Shown piece after piece: positions 18,201-32,978 of a stretch of DNA of 64,000 nt. Every line of letters starts with the position of its first letter. Position 1 is the first letter of the stretch. The position numbers were made by a program, and so were the translations under genes. The notes beneath the pieces are model-generated. The model was not told the origin of the DNA, ran no database searches, and saw nothing but the letters and a program-made list of their open reading frames with translations. The stretch is from Pegea sp. RAD2-039 (lineage: Eukaryota > Chordata > Thaliacea > Salpida > Salpidae): positions 434,001 through 498,000 of the forward strand of contig JAQGEQ010000357.1 in assembly GCA_034620365.1 (NCBI GenBank), given 5' to 3'.

Positions 18201-18887
18201 TTTTTGTTGTAGAAGATTTTCTAGAAAGCTTGTGTTTTTTTATTCATTTAAAACTAAATCAAATTTTAGACTTGTGAAAATGAACACAAATTTTAATAAT
18301 ACTTTAAATTTAGTTTAAATTTCTTTTAATGTACATTTTTAATTGTGTAGTTTATCCTTATAATATTTATCTTATTTTCATCTAGCTTAATTCTAAATAA
18401 TTTGATAAGTTCAATGAATTACAATTCAAAATATAGTAAAAAATAAAACTAATCTAAATAAAAGTAAATGCAATTTGACGACAAATTAATAAGCGGACAG
18501 AAAATGGAAACTAATTATCTTAATTATACTTTTAATTATATTAAAATTATTAAAAGCTACTAAGCTACTTTTCTAAAAGAAACTTTTACTAACAAAATGT
18601 TACCAAATTATTTATTTTCACAAATAAAACTTTTATTTTTCTAATATTTTATGATTCTTTTGAACGCTTATTGCTTACAATGAACATAACTTAACTGTTA
18701 ATTAAGCAAAGTTTTATATTTACACAATTTGTTGTAAACACCATAAAAACTAGTAATCGTAGCTACTAAAAAATAGGATAAACTATATCACGTTTAATAC
18801 AACATTAACTGTTTACTAATGTGTTTACAAAATTGAGTAAATTTTTTATACTTAGTTGTTAATGACAGTTAAAAATAAGTCTTTAGA
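15276..18887. other. Gene-free AT-rich gap between divergent F-box and connexin genes
   Basis: 3.6 kb at very low GC with no supported exon, RNA gene or clear repeat on either strand. It should contain both promoters; nothing specific is recognised. Confidence 0.5.
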
Positions 18888-21800
18888 ATGGGCTGGCACA
18901 ATGTGGAAAAACTTTTAGAGCAGGCAGCAGCTCATTCAACATTGATAGGAAAGTTTTGGACAACATTTTTTTATGTATTACGCTTTCTCATTGTAATATC
19001 TATTGCTGATAAAGTGTTTGGTGATGACTTCGGAAAATTCAAATGTAATACATTGACTCCTGGATGCGAGAATATTTGTTTTAATGACTTCAGCCCTATA
19101 TCAATGGTCCGACTATGGGCACTTCAGGTATACTAGACTTATTTGACAAAATATGAAAATAAAAAATAACTTAAGTTTTTGAAAAACAAAAATTTAATGA
19201 TTTACTTTGAGCTGTTGTATCAAAACTTAATAAATATTTACTTGCCCCTAATTAAATAATTAATTTGTTTTAAGTTTCTTGATAAAGGGGGGTTTTCATA
19301 ATAAGTAGAGCTTTATGAGTTAAACGGTTTTTAAATTGCTTATAAATACTCTCTAACTGAATTTAGAAATTAATTGGATATGAAAATAGTGAGTTTAATG
19401 GATTTAATTTAAAGTTTAGATGTATCGTTAAAAACCTACCTAATATTTGATATAACTTTAGCTCCTTAGTGTTGCAATACCAGCTATTATCTTTATCGTC
19501 TACACCGTACATAAGATGAACAAAATAGCAGAAGCCAAAAAGAAAAAGGCAGAAGTAGAGAAAGAAAGGAAGAGAAGAAAAGAAAAACAGAAGTTAAGAA
19601 TGGAACGACTTCAAGCTGCACAAGGAATAACCCAAGATGGAGTCATTCACTCACGAGGTTAGACATTTTTTAACTAGTTTGTAATTCACATTAAAAATAA
19701 ATCCAATACCCATTTTACAACATCTAAAATATATTTCTATAAAAACTTTCTGAGATTATTAAAAAAATTAGTTCAAACTTCAAGTTTTAAATGTAACCAA
19801 TAAAAAAGTGAAAACTTTAATAATTTTATTTGATAAACATTCAAAAATTATTTAGTTTTAATTTAAGGTTAACATGGCTTCAGTTGTCTTTCTCTAATTG
19901 TTGCTTAAAAATAAAATTTAATTTTTTAATTTGTGTGTGAGTTTAGTTATAACAAATATTTACGCTTCAAATTATTCTAAATTCTAGAAAGTACACATAT
20001 AGTATTTCAAAAATATTAATAAAATATTTTTCTACCTGTCACATATTGAAAATTTGTAGTAAATTTAATAATGTTTGTTTAAAAAATTTTAATTAATTTC
20101 TTTTTCTCATAACTTTTGTTTTTCAGAAAAAAAAGAGGTAGAAAAAAAGGTAAATAGAAAGTAAAAGCTAAATACTCAATTAAGTAGAATATTAAGTATT
20201 AGAAAATATTTGTTAATCATATAAAGGTTTTGAAAACAATTTTTAACAGAAGATATTTCCATTAAATATTAAATTATTTATTAAATTGTTTAAGGAAAGT
20301 GAAGGAGATGGAAAGATAGTTGCAACTAAGCTAGATAGCGATATGCCGTCTAGACTTTTATTAGCATATGTGGGACAAGTACGTACTCTGCAACTATTTA
20401 TATAAAAAAATTAAACTTAAAAATCCTAATAGTCATAACTCTTAAAGAAAGCTTACTGTTATTATAAAATAAACAACAACAAAGATAAATAACACAACTA
20501 TAAGCATACAGAAAATTACATATGAAAAAGTAGCACAAAAGTTGTATTAGAATAACATTTATATATGCGGTAAAATAACCTACTGTAAAACAGTTCAAAT
20601 ATCATTTTAAAAGTCTTAAAATTTAAAAACCCTTAAATTTTTGAAAACAAACAAACATTTTTCAGTTGATTCTACGTCTGGTTGTGGAAATAGTGTTTAT
20701 GTGGGCTCAATATAACACATACGTTTATAAGTTTTGGATGCCAGAAATCTTTAAATGTGCAAGATACCCATGCAAGAATGTAGTAGATTGCTTTGTATCA
20801 AGACCCAAGGAAAAAACTATCATTATGTGGATAATGTTTTGTAAGTATAAAGCTCTATTTGTACTATTTATTATGTGCATAGTTTATCAAACTCAAATAT
20901 TTTAAAGTATATTTTGATCTTTTAGAACTGGTTGGTCTTTTACTTGTCTTTTATTCATTTTAGCGGGGTTTGAATATTAGTAAGATGCAAAATTCTTAAA
21001 GTAAACCTTCAATATATTTACTTTGAAAAGTTTTGTAAATGTAATTCCAAGAAACTTGATAAAAATTTGATTTTGCTGTTGAAAGACGTTTAATGTTGAT
21101 TAATGGTTTTTTCCTTTTGAACAAACAAAGTATTTAATTAATTTTTCTCTCCAGTAATGATTTATTGAAGAGTTGTTTTCCAGCATTTAATAAAGATAGC
21201 AAAAAGCTAATATTTGAAAATATCAGACTTATTCAACCTACAGATGAATAACAAATAGAGTTTTGTACATATCTTGTTTTGTATGTTGCATTTATCTAAA
21301 TCAAATGTCAGTAATAATATTGTAAGTCAAATTCTAATGTATAAAAATCCTTCTGAATATATTCTATCTATCTGAATATATTTGATTGTTCAAATGTTTT
21401 ATATTCTAAATTTTAAGGAAAAGTTTTTTAATGTTATAAATTTTATCAAGTTGAAATTGGAACAAAATTGTCGCTTTACTTTTAATATAGTTTATAGCAG
21501 TGTTTCCAACCTATAAAAATTAAATTTTTAAAAACAAAACTCGAAAACATGATCAACATAATTTATAATAACTTTATTATTTCGTTTAGTAAATACAAAT
21601 TTTAGATACTTTATAATTACATTTATATAAAAAATTTGTTTAAAAAAACTAAAATGAGATGATTCAAAGAATACATTTTTATATTTATTTTTATATATCA
21701 CAACAGCTTTCATTCTGAACGATAATTCTGAATAATAAGAAAACTTTTAATTTGATTTTATAAAAATCGCAAATTTTGAGTAGTTTTTTTAAGATAAAAA

Positions 21801-22116
21801 AAAAATATAATTTAAAAAAAAACAGATTCAAATATTAGTTAAAGATAAACTAAATCTATATTTATTTCAAAATCTAGCAACTGGTCTTCTGATGATCTTT
21901 TTAAATCTAATTGAGCTTCACCACATCGGAATTAAAAAGATATGGAATGCTTGGAAAAATCGTGGAATCGATATTACGAAAATGTATAAAGTTGGAAGTA
22001 ACAGTGACCCCCAATTTCGTACTCGAAGGTTTGGTGTTGAGTACCCCTTCGCTTCTGGCATACCAATTATGCAACCATACCCTTACTATGATGATTACAG
22101 CGAAAGCGAAATTTAA
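18888..22116 (+). CDS. Connexin (gap-junction protein), six coding exons
   Basis: Connexins form hexameric hemichannels that dock between cells. Exons 18888-19127, 19462-19657, 20127-20149, 20295-20378, 20666-20840 and 21878-22116 join in frame to 318 residues. The N-terminus MGWHNVEKLLEQAAAHSTLI is followed by TM1 and the first extracellular loop CNTLTPGCENIC, the exact C-X6-C-X3-C signature. The second loop CARYPCKNVVDCF fits C-X4-C-X5-C and is followed by SRPKEKT. Four membrane segments are visible. The cytoplasmic loop (about residues 100-185) is strongly basic/acidic (KKKKAEVEKERKRRKEKQK). The C-terminus is short, YPYYDDYSESEI, ending in a class I PDZ-ligand form (S-X-I). The second donor is GTTAGA and exon 3 is only 23 nt. 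Connexins are chordate-specific, which supports the host assignment. The subtype is not assigned. Confidence 0.95.
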
Positions 22117-23342: not shown

Positions 23343-26300
23343 TCAAACTCTATAAATTTCATCAAATAAATCTACCAGGAAATCATTAACCATTTCGTCA
23401 TTGGGGGCCATTTTCAGCATCCCATAGACAGCAGCCTGCCCTTTCTTGGCATTTGTTCCAAATTTCTGAAAACAGTTAAGATTTAAAACCACACAATACT
23501 TTAATAAGCTTACAGATCTGTCAAAACCTAAAATTATTTCTGAGTAACTACTTCAGTTTTCTAGATTTAATACTACAATTGTTTAATAAATCTTGATTAA
23601 AAGTTCTCATGCTTTATTAGATTCTTAATTACTGAAATGTGAGCCATAGAATCTTTTAAATCAATTATCCACTGGTCTACGCTGTGAATATGTGATGGAA
23701 GAACAGTACAATGAACAGAGTCAGGGTTTCTTTGTACCTCCATCTTCCAACCTGAAAAGAACAATTGAGTTACAAGATCAAAAAACATGAAATAATTATG
23801 ATGTTCCACAAATTAAAACTTAGAATTTGTATCAAAATATTATCACATTAATGTCTTGCAGCGTTTTCTTTAATGTCTATAACGTTTTTATTACAATTTT
23901 AATCAACACATTCTTTGAATCGTGGCTTGGCTATGTTTAAATCAGTAACCTATGTAACCTAATACTGGTTGAAATAAATAGAACATCCTGGAGTATTTAG
24001 TTTCTACTTCCTCAAGTTTTCTTATTGAATTTATAGACTTCTTCCAAGTAAAAATTCTTCTAGGCTTTTTTATAACTATTTATGTAATTAGCTCTAATAC
24101 TTTAAGCGTTTTAAATAAAATTTGTTGAAGTATCTCTGCTAAGTTAACTGAGAATTAATTTGTAAATGTTAGTCACTTAGAGCGCTGTTTGGTTGATTAA
24201 TAAAGATAAAGTGTTATCAATATACTGATAGCAAAATATTTATTGAAATATTTGATTTGATAGCTTTAATAAGTACAAGTAAAAATATTGGAAAGATATA
24301 AGAAAACTCCAAAACGTTATTTCAAGGAAAATAAATATGAGTTAGAGAGATGTTTTTTTTGTTTATTGGTGATTGAAATAAGATTTCATTTTAAATAGAA
24401 GATGCTTAAGAACTTAGAAAAGTTAATTAAAAGAGTTTAAGCAGGTTTTCAGTAACTAGTAATTCGTGAAAATTTTTAATACAAAAATATATTCTAAAGA
24501 TCAAGATTTTATTTATCACTTAAACTTGGAATTTAGTAGTACATTTAATAAAGTTGAGTAATTAAAGATGAATTCGAATCTGAAAAACGGATATTTGCTT
24601 CTAATTTATTTTTACTTTATTATTATGGTAACGACAAAATATTCTAGAGATGACTGTAAACAAGAGAAAAAAGGAGGTTTGATAACACCAACAATTAAAT
24701 ATAATAAAAAAATAAAAATTTATCTTTACCAGACTCTAATGGAATTTGGGTTAACTCTACAATGCTAGAGCATCAATTAGAATGGTTACCAGAAACAATA
24801 AATGCGTCATACATTGTTCAATATCACAGTTCAGCGTGGAAATGTTATATCAATGTAACTGAATGCATTGAAATAAAAACGACAAAATGTGATTTAACTA
24901 AGACACTAAAGTTTGTAAGTGCTTTGTATATGATTAGAGTTCTATCAGACACTTATAATGACTCCTGGATTAAATCTATTGAATTCTCTCCAGAATTAGA
25001 CAGTAAGTTTTCTGCTTTTATTGTTTACCTTCATCAAGATAAATTATTTTCATAGCAATTTTATCACCTCCAAAATTTAATGTAACAAGACAACTTGGAA
25101 AGATTATTGTAGATCCTCTGATTCCAGTTGATAAAGGAACAAATGAGACTATTGGACTTCGGCTAACTACTATAAAATACCAAGTAAGCGACATAGACAA
25201 CAAGTTGATTGTTTCACATATAAATGTGCTTGTCACAAGCATCCGAACCTCGCTACAAAAACTATTCAAACCAACAACCAATCATACCAACAGTATGATT
25301 ATTTAATAAATAAGAATTTAAAGTAAAATTGAAACATTAAAATATAATTTTGTTTTGAAAAACTTTGTTAAGTTTGCATTAGCTTATAAATAAGAGTTGT
25401 TTACCAACAAATAATTTTAGATTTTATTTATTTTCATAAACAGGTCCTTAAAATAAATCTTTAAGACCTTATAAGATTTATTTGTTCGCAGGTAAAGTAC
25501 GAGAAAAAACCGAATAAGGAAAATAACAGTGTCCTTTTGTTAAGCTCTCTTGAAACTACTAAAATAATCATACCGGTAATTTACAGAGTATTTCAGTTAA
25601 AAACTGAAATTAAGCTAATAATCGCTGCTACATTTGCTAATTTATATACTTGAAATATGCAGGATATTGACAACAGTCAAATTTATTGCGTTTCAATGAG
25701 GTTACTAAGAGATGTTATGAGAAATAGTGCAAAGGCCAAATGGTCGAAAAGAAAATGCTTGGAGACTTTACAAACAGCTCCAACTTTGAAGTTTTGGATA
25801 GTTTTTCTATATGTTGGTGTAATTGTGTTAATTATTATCATTGCTTGTGCTATGAAACTTGTCTATAAACTATGGAAAGTTTATAAGCATTCCAAAGTAG
25901 TCCCTACATTCTTGGTAAGTTGCATGGTGGACAGTTTATAAAATAAAACTGCAATGAGTATAACAAAAACTAAAGATGCTTCTTTAAGTAGACGAGTGAA
26001 AATAAACTTTGTAGTTTGATTTAACTAATTGGGTTTATTTCTAAAATGTTGCTATATTTTCCGATAGTTAGGGTTCAAAAATTAAAAAAAGCTTTTAACC
26101 TGAAAATATTTGATAAAATCCCTGTTACCTTGTAACTTCCTTATAAGAGTTACGACTTCTAGAGATTAAACTTAAGATATTTTCAATGTAGAAAGAAATG
26201 TTCTTAAAGGAAAAAAATAATCAAACTATCTATGGTCCGTTTGAGGATAAACACCAAAATGAGCTTGTTGATATTTTCTTACCAGCGAAACAAAACGAAG

Positions 26301-29300
26301 ATCATACAATTAAACTTGACTTTAAAACTAATAATTCTCTCAATGGTTTGTTATTTTGCAGTTTGCTGAAAAATATTTACTTTTTTTCTGATTAATTTAT
26401 CAAAATACTAAGTGTTTCAAAAAGTTTCAACATTTTTGAGTCAAAGATACTTTAATCTAGTGAACAGCATTTTATTAGAATAAAAATAATTTGTATTGAC
26501 AAAAAGTCAATAATAAGATATGACTTTTTACAGCAGTAAAAATAATTATTTTTTAAATTATCCTCAATAAACAATTTCAGATGACTTCTTTAATGGACAT
26601 CAAAATAAAGAGCAGATCATTTCTAACAATGTGGACAAATACTATAACAGCTCAAAAACAGAGAAATCGACAACACCTCAAAAAATGAAGCCTGTTGTAA
26701 ATGATGTCGTATTTTTAGACAATTCATTATTATTTAATTCTATGGATAATACATTTTATGATGAGTTTCAAGAGATCGAAGAAGATTCATTTTATCCTGG
26801 AAATAAGAATGAAAATCTTTCATCTGATTATAAACGATTTAATGAGGTTTTTTCAAACTAATCTTTAAATGATCTAAGTGAAAGCATCAAGTGATTCTCT
26901 CATTAAATTCTAAATCAAATGAATATTGGTAACACTGTAAAATTCGTTTTACATAAAATCAAATTATAATAAAAAGTATTGACCTGTTATGCCTGTGTTG
27001 TTTGTACATAAAACATAAATTTATGTACAATTTATGAATTAAAAGATGGATTTCATTAATAAAAAAATACTTTTTCACAAAAACTTTTTATTTGAGGTAA
27101 AGTTGAAAATCACTTTTGTGTGGGATGATACCATCTGTGAAGCTCCAAAAATAGTATCAATTTTGCTCAAAATGCTTTTAAATAAACATTTAACCTTCAC
27201 ACAGATAGATACACATCTTTTTAGATTGGTAATATTTTTCAGTTAATACTGTAATACTATATTATTATAACTATCAAAGATTATTATGTTATAGAAACGA
27301 GTTTCACTCATAAAAACTTTTGTTTTAGTAGCACTAACGGGAAAATAATTTATTTATTTATTACAATAAATGCGAAGGAGGATATCTGAAGGAAGAAGAC
27401 ATAACAAACATTATGTTCAAAATTATTGAATGCTTTTGAAAAAAAGATACTTTGTAAATAAAGTTTTTCAAATTTCAATAGAATTTTATCTACTATTATG
27501 CTTTTATATAAATTTTCTATAAAGCAAATAAAAGCTAACAGTGTGATCGCCTAAACCACAAAACTGATACTGTTAGTTTGATTCTTAGAACCCTTTTTAC
27601 TTCCTAGAATGATAGAAGGATGATTAATGTTGAACTACTAAAAACACATAAACTATTTTGATAATTATTTCAAATGTAGCCACTTAAACTGTGAAAAATT
27701 ATTAACATCAACTATCTAAATCTGTGGTAATCTACTTTAATATTTTTCAATATATTTAATTATATTTTTAAAAAATAAACTGTTTTTAGTCAAGTGAAGC
27801 TAACAAAAAAGATTATTGAAGTTACCAGCAAATTGTGTTGAGTTTTTTAGAAACACCGGTGAAAAAAAAAATAAACAAAAATCAAATTACTTATAAAACT
27901 AGAAACACAAAAACTTTGCCTTATTCAGTAGGCAAAAACTATCCACATGGTTTTAAATAAGATAGTTTTATAATTCTCAAAAATTCTATTCAAATTCAGA
28001 CAGAAGATGTTATTTGTGAGGTTGTATTAGCGAGAGGTGTTCTTTTCAGGCACCCTTCTTTGCATTTATTGTAATAAATAAATAAACCATTGCTGATGAC
28101 CAAATACTTTACAAATTTTGTTTTTCACAAATCCATATTAGTTTTATGCCTTAAATAAATGTTTAAAATCACTTCTATTACATAGTGCTAATAAACTGTT
28201 TAAAGCAAAAAAGATAAATTATAAATATTCATTTCCAATTTTATAATGGTCTTTAAAACTTAGAAGGAATTTGTTTGGTTAATTTTTAGATTTTTTATAA
28301 TTATCTAAAGACATTGTAAAAAGGCTATCATTTAGACTTACAAATGAAAAGATTGTTTGGTACATAAAGGAGCCACTTAAATAATCAAAAATATTTTTCT
28401 GAGAGTAAGTAAATCAAGTTTGTGGAGTCAATACAACAGACAAAAATTCTTCTCAAAAAATAAATATCCTTTATTAAATTTCTTAAAGTTTATTTTGTCA
28501 TAATTTTGAAAGACTTATAGATCAAAGTTACTCTAACAAAGATTTACTTTGGAAAGAAGTATCTAACGATAAAGGAAATTAGTGATTGACTTCTAAGAAT
28601 TTACTTTATGTAATTACAAGGCTAAATGAACTTGAGTTTTAAAGAAATTTTTGAACTGCAAAAGGCTTCAGAATTTTAATAGTTCATTCAAAATTAAAAG
28701 AAAATATCTTTGATAACATTTAGTCGAGTTAAAATAAATGATAGAAATTTGCAAAGTTAAAAATGTGTGATTCTTTTAATTTATGATATTTTAATAAACT
28801 AAAGAAAATAGTATTTAATAGTTAAGTTTATTACTTTGATTAACATAAACAACATTTTCTACATTTGCTAAAGATTCAGTCAATAGAAAGATAACTTATT
28901 TTATTCACTTTTTATAAAAACAAATTTGAGTAAGGAATGTTTTTAGTAAACTTTTAGATAGAGTATGAAATGTATATTATGAAAACATTTTTTTTAATCT
29001 CAAAGAATGAGAAAATTTCGAAAAATTCTTAAACGTAGAAAACAATTTTCAAGGCTGATATAATAACTCTAAAGTCAAATAAATATTTTCTTCTAAAGAC
29101 TTAAAATACTTTTAATTAAGAAATGCTAAGGCATTCAGCCTCCCTTTTTTATTTTCTAATCATTCAAAGCCTATAAAATAATAGCTATCAAGCTAAATAC
29201 TTAAAATATGTTTTATATATCCACCAAAATAGTAAATGCTTTTTTTAATATGTTGCTTTCAAATTTCTTTAATTCTTCAGACATTAAAACCAGTGTTAGA

Positions 29301-32300
29301 AATCAATATTTTCAAATATATTTCTGTAAATAGTTTAAAAAATTTGCAATACAAAGCATCATATACAAAGCAGACACGAGAGGCAGGCTGCATGATTAAT
29401 CAATAATTCCTTATCACGTTTCAAAAGTTTTCAAAGTCTAAAAAATATTTTTTCACGATTTTTTGAAATCTTTTTCCTTGTTCTGTTTACTCTTAATAAA
29501 TGTCTTTCGGCTGTACATTTTTAAGGTTACTAAATCACTAAGTTAAAGCTTGGCAGGAACGATATAAGAATATTTTTTTAGAAAAAGACTTATTAAAATT
29601 TCTATACGAATATCTTTTCGATTTGTCTCAACAAACTGATATATTGCCACCTTCTAAATCCTACTCAACGTTTTACGAAGATTAAAACTGAAGCATTATT
29701 CAAATTTCTATAAGAGTTTGATTATTCTCATTTGAATCAACAATATCTGGATCTGTATCTTTTAAATTAGGTAAGAACTGATTTTCAACGTCCGAAAAAT
29801 GCATTTTTTCTTTTGTTTCATCTTTCAAATTAATCATTGGTGATGTTACATAAATCTAAAAGAAATAAAAATAGCAAATATTAGCTGGTTTAATTAATTT
29901 GTCTTATGATAATAATTTTATTATAATAATTATTTTAATTTAGATTTATATAGAAATTATGAATAGATTTGAAAACTTTACAAACCAGTGACTGTGGAAT
30001 TGACTCATGATTAAGATTAGAGATCTTTTTTTTGTATTGTTTAATTTGTTTCAAAATATAGTATACTATAAGCACAGCTAAAATCGCAGAAAATATGCAT
30101 AGTGTCAGAATCACAGGTTGTGAAGATTTTCTTTGAACTGTAATTGATGATATGTCAGCTGAAAAATACAAAAATGCTATAACCGTCTCTAGTTTTTTTA
30201 AATAATAATTTGACAAAATTAGTTTACAGAGGAAATTTTCTACTTTTATAATACTGATTGGTATTTGTGTAAACTTGTTTTTGTTGATAAAAATGTCATT
30301 ACATAATCTGCTTTAAAGTAAAGCCTTAGGGCTTTCAATCTTTGCTTGTAGTAAATAAGAAGTTTTGATGGAAGTTTTAGCTGTAAAACCATTGGTGAAA
30401 TATGTAACAATAGATTGCATTGTACTTTAAAGCTGTTATGAAATTATAAACCAGTTTAAAAAAAAGTTTGAAGATAGAAGTGATTTTATAGGGAAAGAAT
30501 TCAATAAATATCCGATCTAGTTTCATTTATAAGTCGCTACAAAGTTTAATATTAATTTCTTTAATAATGTATGACTTAGGAATACTTTTTAGAAACATAC
30601 AAATAGTTAAAAATAGATTTTAATGACTTAATTGGCTAATTACATTTCTATCTCTAAGCTTATTGAAATATGATTCATTTGAAATTTATTAAAAAATAAA
30701 ACTTTTAAAAAATTTAATGAGAAGTTTATTTAGAATAACATTAAATTTGATGGAAGAATAATGATAAATAAATGATAAGCTATCATACAGTGGACTTACT
30801 AATTTAAAGATGTATTTCAAAGAACATAATCTTACAAAAAGTTTAAAATTACATAAATACTTCAAAACCACTTCATTTGACTAAGTAAGAAACTGTTGTA
30901 AAAAGAATTTTTTATTCAGTCATAATCTTCTATTTATGGTTTTTTTAAATATAAATTTTTGGTGGCGTTTGGTAAAAATAGCATAAGTGTGGCAATAACT
31001 GCCAACGCTAAGTTATTTGAGCTATTTATGAGAAATTAGCGAAATTGGATATTTTTCAACTAAGTTATTGTTTGCAAAATTTGCTTACTTTTTAAACATT
31101 TTGGCACATGACAGTGTTGGCTATCATACATTTCTGCATTTATAGTTACACAGAAACATATAAAAGAATGTTGTAATAGATCTGGTAGATGGAGTGTTAT
31201 ATTTTCTTTACTAGCCTCTAGAGCAACGATGTGTTTTTTAGGGTCACCCTAAAAAACAGAAAACTTATTTAAAGCATTTTGATATTTTAGCAAAAAGATT
31301 ATTCTTACCTGATACCAATAATCAATTATATATTGAGGATAATGACCTTCAAAAAAGTCTATTAAATCAACATCAGTATAATTTTGTTTAACAGTTTTAT
31401 GGAAGACGCTCAAAAAGGCATTTTGGCCTTTTAATGTAACGTTGAACATTGGAGGTTTAAGTTCAACTACAAAATAAGAATAACAGAAATATTTGATTAA
31501 AACAAAGTATCTAAAACCTTCTATTGAAGACAAGAAAGAGATTTCTCTAAGTGCAATCACATTATCAAGTTTGGAAAATATTTTAAAATAAAATGCTTCA
31601 TAAGAACTCCAATCTTCATTATCAATAAGCTCACATTCACACTTTGTTAAGTTTGTGCAAGATGGTAAAGTTTTTATTCTGTAAAAATTAAGCAATAGTC
31701 TTTAAAAAAACTTTTGAGCTTTAAAGATAATCACTTTAGTTCAGAACCACTCCAGTCTTCCATTTCAACAGAGTAGATAAGATTTTTATTAGTGTTTGTT
31801 TGACCACTAAGGCAACTAAAACCACTTGGGGCGTCCCAAGTCATATTACATTCAAAATTATAACAATTAAATCTGACATTTCGAACTTGGATATCACCTA
31901 AATGAAGATATTTATTTATTATTCGATTATTTATATTAGTTTTGCTTTACTAACCTGATATGGTATGTAGAAGTAAGAAAAAAATTGCAAAATTCCTTGT
32001 GAACCAACTGTTTCTTGAAAGTAAAACCATTTCAACAAGAACTTTATACAATTTCAGGGGTAGAAAGCTAAAGTCAAATTATTTAACTAGCTTTTATTCT
32101 TTTACTTTAACAACTAATCTGAAACTAAAACATCTTTAGCTGTTGAACATATTCTACAAATACATCTTTGTTTCTCATTTCTAAATATTTCTAAGAAAAG
32201 TTGAGACCTGCAACTTGCAAGTGCTAGCCAAATACTAATTTCCTGTACATGTGACACTTCATCCAAACTACTTCTTTTTTATTTTTACTGCCAAATTAGT

Positions 32301-32978
32301 ATACAGTTTTACTGTTTGAAAAAAAAACTTAAATATTCAAACTTCTAAATTCTTTTTTCGAGTCTAGATGATTTTCGAGTTTTCACATAAACAATTTTAA
32401 AAACAAACTCTTATGCTTTACCATCAGACAATTAAAAAAGGCAAAGTGATTGGCAAAGAAGAAAGTTTTGTGAAATATTTACGCACATACCTTTCTCTTC
32501 CATTAAATCGGCGAGACTAAATATATTTGTGGCTTCAGTAGTAAATGAAAAAGCCGTCATTAAAGGGGTTCCCAACACCTTCAGCCCCTAGAAATAGCTT
32601 CAATTAAGCATTTTGGCATTCAATATAGAATAAGTAATTAAAACCCTTACAATAAAAGCTATAAAGAAAAGCGTTTAGCTTATTGATAAAAAATTATTCA
32701 AAATTACATTTATATCTATAAATAATAATTGTATAATCAGTATTTAAAAGATGAATTGATTATTTTTTTATTAAAAAGTTGATGAGAATAATATCTGGCT
32801 AATTTATATTACTGAATAAAATTATGTTGAAAGTTTGTGGATAGTTAAAAACATATTTTCAAATTTAGAGAATTTGTTATTAAAAATTTTGAAAAAAGGA
32901 TGGTTCCAATTATTTATTTTGTGTTTCATAAAAAACCGGAAAATATTTTTTCAAATATTCAAGTTTAATTTTAAGAGG

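Follow-up and report, generated by a model that had tools for sequence, protein, structure and literature searches.

Two predicted class II cytokine receptor genes, arranged tail to tail within one SGPL1 intron of a seemingly invertebrate chordate

Introduction

Interferon/IL-10-type cytokines are usually seen as a jawed-vertebrate system, and the locus described here raises the question of whether two genes of what looks like an invertebrate chordate belong to the class II cytokine receptor family (CRF2) and, if so, how they might work. The genes, here called A and B, lie in a 64,000-nucleotide stretch of DNA (the window) that comprises bases 434001–498000 of contig C71 in a genome of 105.7 Mb and 387 contigs, and that has a GC content of 26%. 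An earlier reading of this window, made from its letters alone and referred to below as the sequence-only reading, had taken the two genes for an ancestral CRF2 pair lodged within an intron of SGPL1, the gene for sphingosine-1-phosphate (S1P) lyase, and for a possible undescribed cytokine axis.

It named the family correctly, but priority outside vertebrates cannot be claimed. The available part of one paper describes one apparent class II receptor each in Ciona (GI 198428337) and amphioxus (GI 260796075) (PMC3210801), so A and B are not the first. A 2021 BLASTP survey that included tunicates and used a threshold of E ≤ 1e-10 finds the earliest IL10R-family receptors in lampreys, according to the portion of its text available (PMC8226699), and the accessible text of a review of interferon receptor evolution yields no mention of amphioxus, urochordates or sea squirts to a term search (PMC5332411). 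The divergence of tunicate CRF2 genes may be why strict BLAST surveys overlook them.

Two convergent genes within one SGPL1 intron

SGPL1 is encoded on the minus strand, and its host intron runs from position 32490 to position 23752 of the window (8,739 bp), with the ends GTATGT...TTTCAG. The exon upstream of the intron (32491–32587, minus strand; GLKVLGTPL...DLMEEKG; start placed by eye) and the exon downstream of it (23633–23751, minus strand; WKMEVQRNPDSVHC...; 3′ end placed by eye) are both open frames that match S1P lyases, and they splice together in frame. Along with the next exon, which was joined to the query by eye, they align as one unbroken stretch to S1P lyases over residues 2–111 of 111 (best E-value 4e-10), and S1P lyase 1 (4q6r) matches the joined exons at 8e-8. 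The intron boundaries and the exact fit of the exons on both sides are thus as the sequence-only reading had them.

Both genes lie inside this intron and converge, with their 3′ ends 2.8 kb apart. Gene A occupies 24568–26861 on the plus strand and gene B 32030–29700 on the minus strand; each has seven exons, encoding a predicted 425 and 348 residues, respectively. The exon borders were set from reading frames and splice consensus, and in both models the frame closes and all six introns are GT-AG, in agreement with the earlier description of two convergent seven-exon genes. The nesting itself is probably passive, the simplest view being that the intron is a mere insertion site.

Gene A is predicted to encode a CRF2 receptor

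Gene A begins with a putative signal peptide (exon 1, 24568–24676), its N terminus being moderately hydrophobic (1.44, by hydropathy only). Exon 2 (24733–25002) carries the entire first fibronectin type III (FN3)-like domain, D1, recognized by its PF01108 match and containing a C-x7-C pair at residues 81–89. The second domain, D2, starts in exon 3 (25056–25183) after the hinge DT(ILS)PP, continues through exon 4 (25492–25575) and ends in exon 5 (25663–25914), exon 4 resting on the gene model and exon 3 on the model plus the PF09294 match of the spliced protein. Exon 5 also encodes the one strong membrane segment (Kyte-Doolittle 3.18 in a 19-residue window) and, past it, the box1-like proline motif VPTFL at residue 277, identified by hydropathy and motif scan. 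The modelled exons 6 (26192–26345) and 7 (26581–26861, with the stop codon) supply an intracellular tail of 154 residues with 6 tyrosines; tail starts in both genes were taken from the hydropathy windows.

Comparison of the predicted protein with Pfam returned Tissue_fac (PF01108; E-value 3.9e-11, 43.2 bits against a cut-off of 27) followed in order by Interfer-bind (PF09294; E-value 6.4e-6, 26.8 bits against a cut-off of 21), and no other Pfam family was listed at E ≤ 10, a threshold at which the HMMER filters discard the majority of matches weaker than about 0.1. Exon 2 was also the top PF01108 match (3.1e-10) when the entire genome was searched in six frames. Against the Protein Data Bank (PDB), 25 of the 28 sequences matched at E ≤ 10 were CRF2 receptors or tissue factor, the remaining three having E-values of 0.27 or worse. 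The best matches were IFNAR1 (6.9e-11), IL-20RA (3.4e-9) and IFNGR1 (3.1e-7), with tissue factor ranking lower. On these Pfam and PDB comparisons, the assignment of the predicted gene A protein to CRF2 is firm.

Gene B very probably belongs to the same family

The predicted product of gene B has the same general plan, laid out over different exons. A putative signal peptide (exon 1, 31955–32030) precedes a D1 divided between exon 2 (31735–31897) and exon 3 (31518–31678), the latter carrying C-x7-C at residues 87–95. D2 is likewise divided, its first half lying with the hinge (V-E-L-K-P-P) in exon 4 (31309–31466) and its second half in exon 5 (31089–31248). Exon 6 (29986–30158) encodes the one strong membrane segment (2.68 on the same scale) and the box1-like motif IPQSL at residue 293, past the segment, and exon 7 (29700–29855) a short tail and the stop codon. 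The whole tail comprises 69 residues and has two tyrosines, residue 281 lying 2 positions and residue 299 lying 20 positions beyond the membrane segment. The membrane helix proposed for each gene was recovered by hydropathy, and the box1-like proline motif by motif scan. The hinge proposed for B (LKPP) is present, whereas that of A is DTxxxPP and not D-T-x-x-PP as the sequence-only reading had spelled it.

Two lines of evidence within gene B point to CRF2. The protein matches Tissue_fac and then Interfer-bind, the domain order seen in A, with exons 2 and 4 each carrying a match that stays below the Pfam cut-off. Its intron phases are 1-2-1-0-1-0, the published CRF2 series, which in the available text of its source is given for most IFN-upsilon-R1 genes, like other interferon receptor genes (PMC8863823); with assumed phase frequencies, this series would arise by chance with a probability of about 0.0012–0.0015 (once in 650–830). 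A further weak match, to DUF272 (0.083), is unrelated. Given the in-order matches, the intron phases and the similarity to A described next, the predicted gene B protein is very probably a CRF2 receptor. The PDB search, taken by itself, makes a weak case for it.

The two proteins resemble each other and vertebrate CRF2 receptors

The similarity between the A and B ectodomains exceeded that of all 500 of 500 shuffles. A two-sequence profile built from the two ectodomains matched nothing but CRF2 receptors and tissue factor in the PDB at E ≤ 1 (39 of 39 sequences), although A may supply most of the signal. Both D1 domains share the C-x7-C spacing, judged typical from alignments to IFNAR1, IL-20RA and IL-22RA1. 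As queries against the genome, A and B each retrieve themselves alone.

Like vertebrate CRF2 proteins (IFNAR1, IL-20RA, IFNGR1, IL-10RB, IL-22RA1/2 and tissue factor), A and B combine a PF01108-type D1 with a PF09294-type D2 (both below cut-off in B), a PP hinge, a single predicted membrane helix and a box1-like motif, and gene B adds the intron phases. They differ from the vertebrate proteins in being very divergent, with B near the detection limit, in the rearranged intron set of A, in coming from a tunicate-like animal and in being nested in SGPL1. The class II identity advanced by the sequence-only reading therefore stands for A and is very probable for B, and the profile searches agree with it, the best matches of A being CRF2 families and those of B being the same two below cut-off.

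CRF2 receptors, class I receptors and FN3 adhesion proteins all have the FN3 fold, and A and B might accordingly be class I receptors or plain FN3 adhesion proteins misread as CRF2. We regard this as exceedingly improbable: at E ≤ 10, Pfam listed neither an fn3 nor a class I family for A or B, a motif scan of the predicted proteins found no WSXWS in either, and the profile matches named above all fall on the class II side. Two class I receptors, gp130-like and CLF-3-like, are known from Ciona, the class being defined by WSXWS and a four-cysteine pattern, the latter lacking in the CLF-3-like proteins, as the available part of the source has it (PMC1963337). A and B are like these receptors in being predicted FN3-based proteins with a presumed place upstream of JAK-STAT signaling in tunicates; they are unlike them in having no WSXWS.

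The name of the Pfam model, Tissue_fac, and the presence of tissue factor among the PDB matches of A suggest a different possibility, that A and B have a CRF2 fold but are tissue-factor-like surface cofactors for a protease or another non-cytokine ligand. IFNAR1, IL-20RA and IFNGR1 all score above tissue factor, however, and the tail of tissue factor is very short, whereas those predicted for A and B run to 154 and 69 residues and carry box1-like prolines; we consider a tissue-factor-like role improbable.

Because A and B are so divergent, and because a truncated copy of another receptor gene (gene C, below) demonstrates that this genome does contain broken copies, one or both genes might also be decaying, with frames still open but function lost. 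The intact frames of all 14 exons, the GT-AG borders of all 12 introns and the paired D1 cysteines argue against this, as does an exon GC content of 30% compared with 22–25% in the introns, and decay appears very improbable.

A second, very divergent pair lies elsewhere in the genome

A weak Tissue_fac match on contig C29 (24.7 bits) led to a further gene, C, and to a neighbor, D, that lies tail to tail with it. Gene C (C29:688171–690971, plus strand) has 12 exons and a predicted 424 residues, and gene D (C29:695706–691941, minus strand) has 11 exons and a predicted 439 residues; in both genes the exons of the tail are less secure, having been placed by eye. A 292-residue part of C matches Tissue_fac above cut-off (5.6e-12) and gave no Interfer-bind match in Pfam, and its 251-residue ectodomain matches IL-20RA (8.2e-4) and IL-22RA2 (0.051) and no others in the PDB. 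Gene D matched no Pfam family. Its link to C comes from a similarity exceeding 500 of 500 shuffles, a BLASTP E-value, among four sequences, of about 7e-5, and agreement in phase at all ten of its introns (1-2-1-1-1-0-1-0-2-1). A profile of C and D had two matches in the PDB at E ≤ 1, each of them a CRF2 sequence. The D1 cysteines stand 12 (C) and 11 (D) residues apart, compared with 8 in A and B, and C, like A and B, lacks WSXWS. By these predictions, profiles identify three CRF2 genes in the genome (A and C, plus B close to the limit), and paralogy alone adds a fourth, D.

The C/D pair was considered as a block duplicate of A/B, and this was not supported: the cross-similarities lie at shuffle level, whereas A–B and C–D exceed all 500 shuffles. 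Of 500 shuffles, 156 reached the similarity of A to C, 293 that of A to D, 302 that of B to C and 268 that of B to D, the comparison having used the 292-residue partial model of C. Similarity at shuffle level could also come from very fast divergence. The "ancestral pair" of the sequence-only reading is only a possibility: A and B are alike and could stem from a duplication specific to tunicates, and another pair, itself very divergent, is present in the genome.

By eye, C and D are flanked by sodium/proton exchanger-like and aminopeptidase N-like genes and, lying between those two genes, are seemingly not nested. As genome queries, D retrieved itself alone and C retrieved itself and a truncated copy. 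This copy, at C29:818239–819269, is a stretch of 1,105 bp that matches the 5′ portion of gene C (exons 1–4 and the start of exon 5) at 98.4% identity, and is either a recent segmental duplication or a product of redundant assembly. The same locus contains 605 bp that are 96% identical to a stretch upstream of D (about L041:7113–7717), which is probably a repeat because the frames there look retroelement-like by eye.

Previously described class II receptors of Ciona and amphioxus resemble A and B as CRF2 proteins of invertebrate chordates; they differ in number, one per genome by published description against two tail-to-tail pairs here. On the predicted genes, we state that the class II receptor branch would already comprise more than one receptor outside vertebrates. 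Among the papers listed by the literature search, judged by titles and the openings of abstracts and with most subscription papers outside it, none was recognized as reporting multiple tunicate CRF2 genes, a tail-to-tail CRF2 pair or a CRF2 gene in an SGPL1 intron. As far as we searched, all three are new.

A JAK and a STAT are encoded in the same genome

The genome encodes a JAK, with matches above cut-off to FERM_F2 (8.1e-18) and a kinase domain (7.4e-29) and matches below cut-off to SH2_1, FERM_F1 and Jak1_Phl. At this locus (C46:409088–409180), the FERM, SH2-like and kinase domains share a single intronless frame (870 codons within the locus and 1144 in all). There is also a clear STAT on contig C18 (5.3e-14). 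For comparison, Ciona has one JAK and two STATs according to the accessible part of a published account (PMC3296744).

A and B as a candidate receptor heterodimer

In vertebrates, receptors of this family pair an R1 signaling chain with a short R2 accessory chain. We consider it likely, from the predicted proteins and gene layout, that A and B are tunicate CRF2 chains that arose by inverted local duplication, came to lie tail to tail in the SGPL1 intron and would form a JAK-coupled, R1/R2-like heterodimer. A, with its 154-residue tail and 6 tyrosines, would then be the R1-like signaling chain, and B, with its 69-residue tail and two tyrosines, the R2-like accessory chain. A secreted helical cytokine would bring the chains together, JAK molecules seated on the box1-like motifs would phosphorylate the tail of A, and STATs would relay the signal.

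Several results tell against this proposal or parts of it. As regards identity, both Pfam scores of gene B fall short of cut-off (PF01108, 24.5 bits against 27, E-value 2.4e-5; PF09294, 19.4 bits against 21, E-value 0.0013), and its sole PDB match when searched alone, IL-22RA1, is not significant (E-value 1.3). The N terminus of B is weakly hydrophobic (1.08, by hydropathy only). The similarity of A to B is weak by BLASTP (E-value about 0.01 in the four-sequence set). The intron phases of A (1,1,0,0,0,1) depart from the CRF2 series, and single-sequence AlphaFold2 modelling of the D1 exon of A alone gave a predicted local distance difference test score of 39.7. As regards function, the R1/R2 assignment is based solely on tail length and tyrosine count, while C and D have tails alike in length (about 138 and 146 residues). 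A second STAT match, on contig C21, is below cut-off (0.0273), and the IL10 family (PF00726) gave no match in this genome or in any of 14 control genomes, with the interferon families not searched.

Some of these points have a counterpart. Four introns of A may, by eye, correspond to members of the series (between signal peptide and D1, between D1 and D2, in mid-D2 and after the membrane segment), with two members absent and two introns additional, and the series is not a strict rule because its source, in the part available, speaks of "most" genes of one receptor type (PMC8863823). The PF00726 search was blank in the controls too, and the empty result therefore says nothing on the presence of a ligand. 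For ligand genes, the rule in the available text of PMC8863823 is five exons with phase-0 introns throughout.

Another account accepts A and B as genuine CRF2 receptors but not as partners. Each would form a homodimer or pair with C or D, and their adjacency would be a mark of duplication. A and B are indeed alike, and the tail-to-tail layout occurs twice; moreover, the like tails of C and D mean that unequal tails are not general among these pairs. The difference in tail length between A and B suits an R1/R2 division, though it is no test of one, and we judge the absence of pairing possible but unlikely. Returning to the A/B heterodimer, a broader proposition is that the split into long signaling and short accessory CRF2 chains, acting as a heterodimer, predates vertebrates and existed beside the divergent tunicate pair C/D, with each pair kept tail to tail, with interferon/IL-10-like ligands yet to be described and with a small JAK-STAT set. 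This we put forward tentatively, and on balance doubt. The unequal tails bring a pre-vertebrate heterodimer within reach of testing, and two divergent tunicate receptor pairs together with a JAK and a STAT provide a concrete entry to the role of the system before interferons.

Other profile matches and lineage markers

The six-frame PF01108 search found three places in the genome: gene A, gene C and an open frame of 6547 residues. The last scored above cut-off (27.5 bits) and was rejected as a receptor gene, since it consists of immunoglobulin (Ig) and FN3 repeats and looks titin-like by eye. The corresponding PF09294 search found nine places, four of them above cut-off, and the six of the nine viewed by eye look like FN3- or Ig-repeat genes. 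It overlooked A and B because introns split their D2. Domains split in this way evade the search, so the CRF2 count is a lower bound and more genes may exist. Four places (C19:455815, C19:260507, C77:309331 and C249:958552) gave D2-profile matches that are alike, two of them above cut-off; the two of these four that were viewed show Ig-like and FN3-like exons in succession and perhaps belong to an Ig-FN3 receptor family.

Adjoining SGPL1 in the window is a connexin gene (18879–22116, plus strand; read by eye beyond its first exon), whose exon at 18879–19133 matches at 7.4e-30, and a GH6 cellulase-like domain encoded elsewhere in the genome scores just above its cut-off (27.5 bits; cut-off, 27). 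We take connexins to be chordate genes and GH6 in an animal to mark tunicates. These two markers suggest that the animal is an invertebrate chordate, as the sequence-only reading had proposed.

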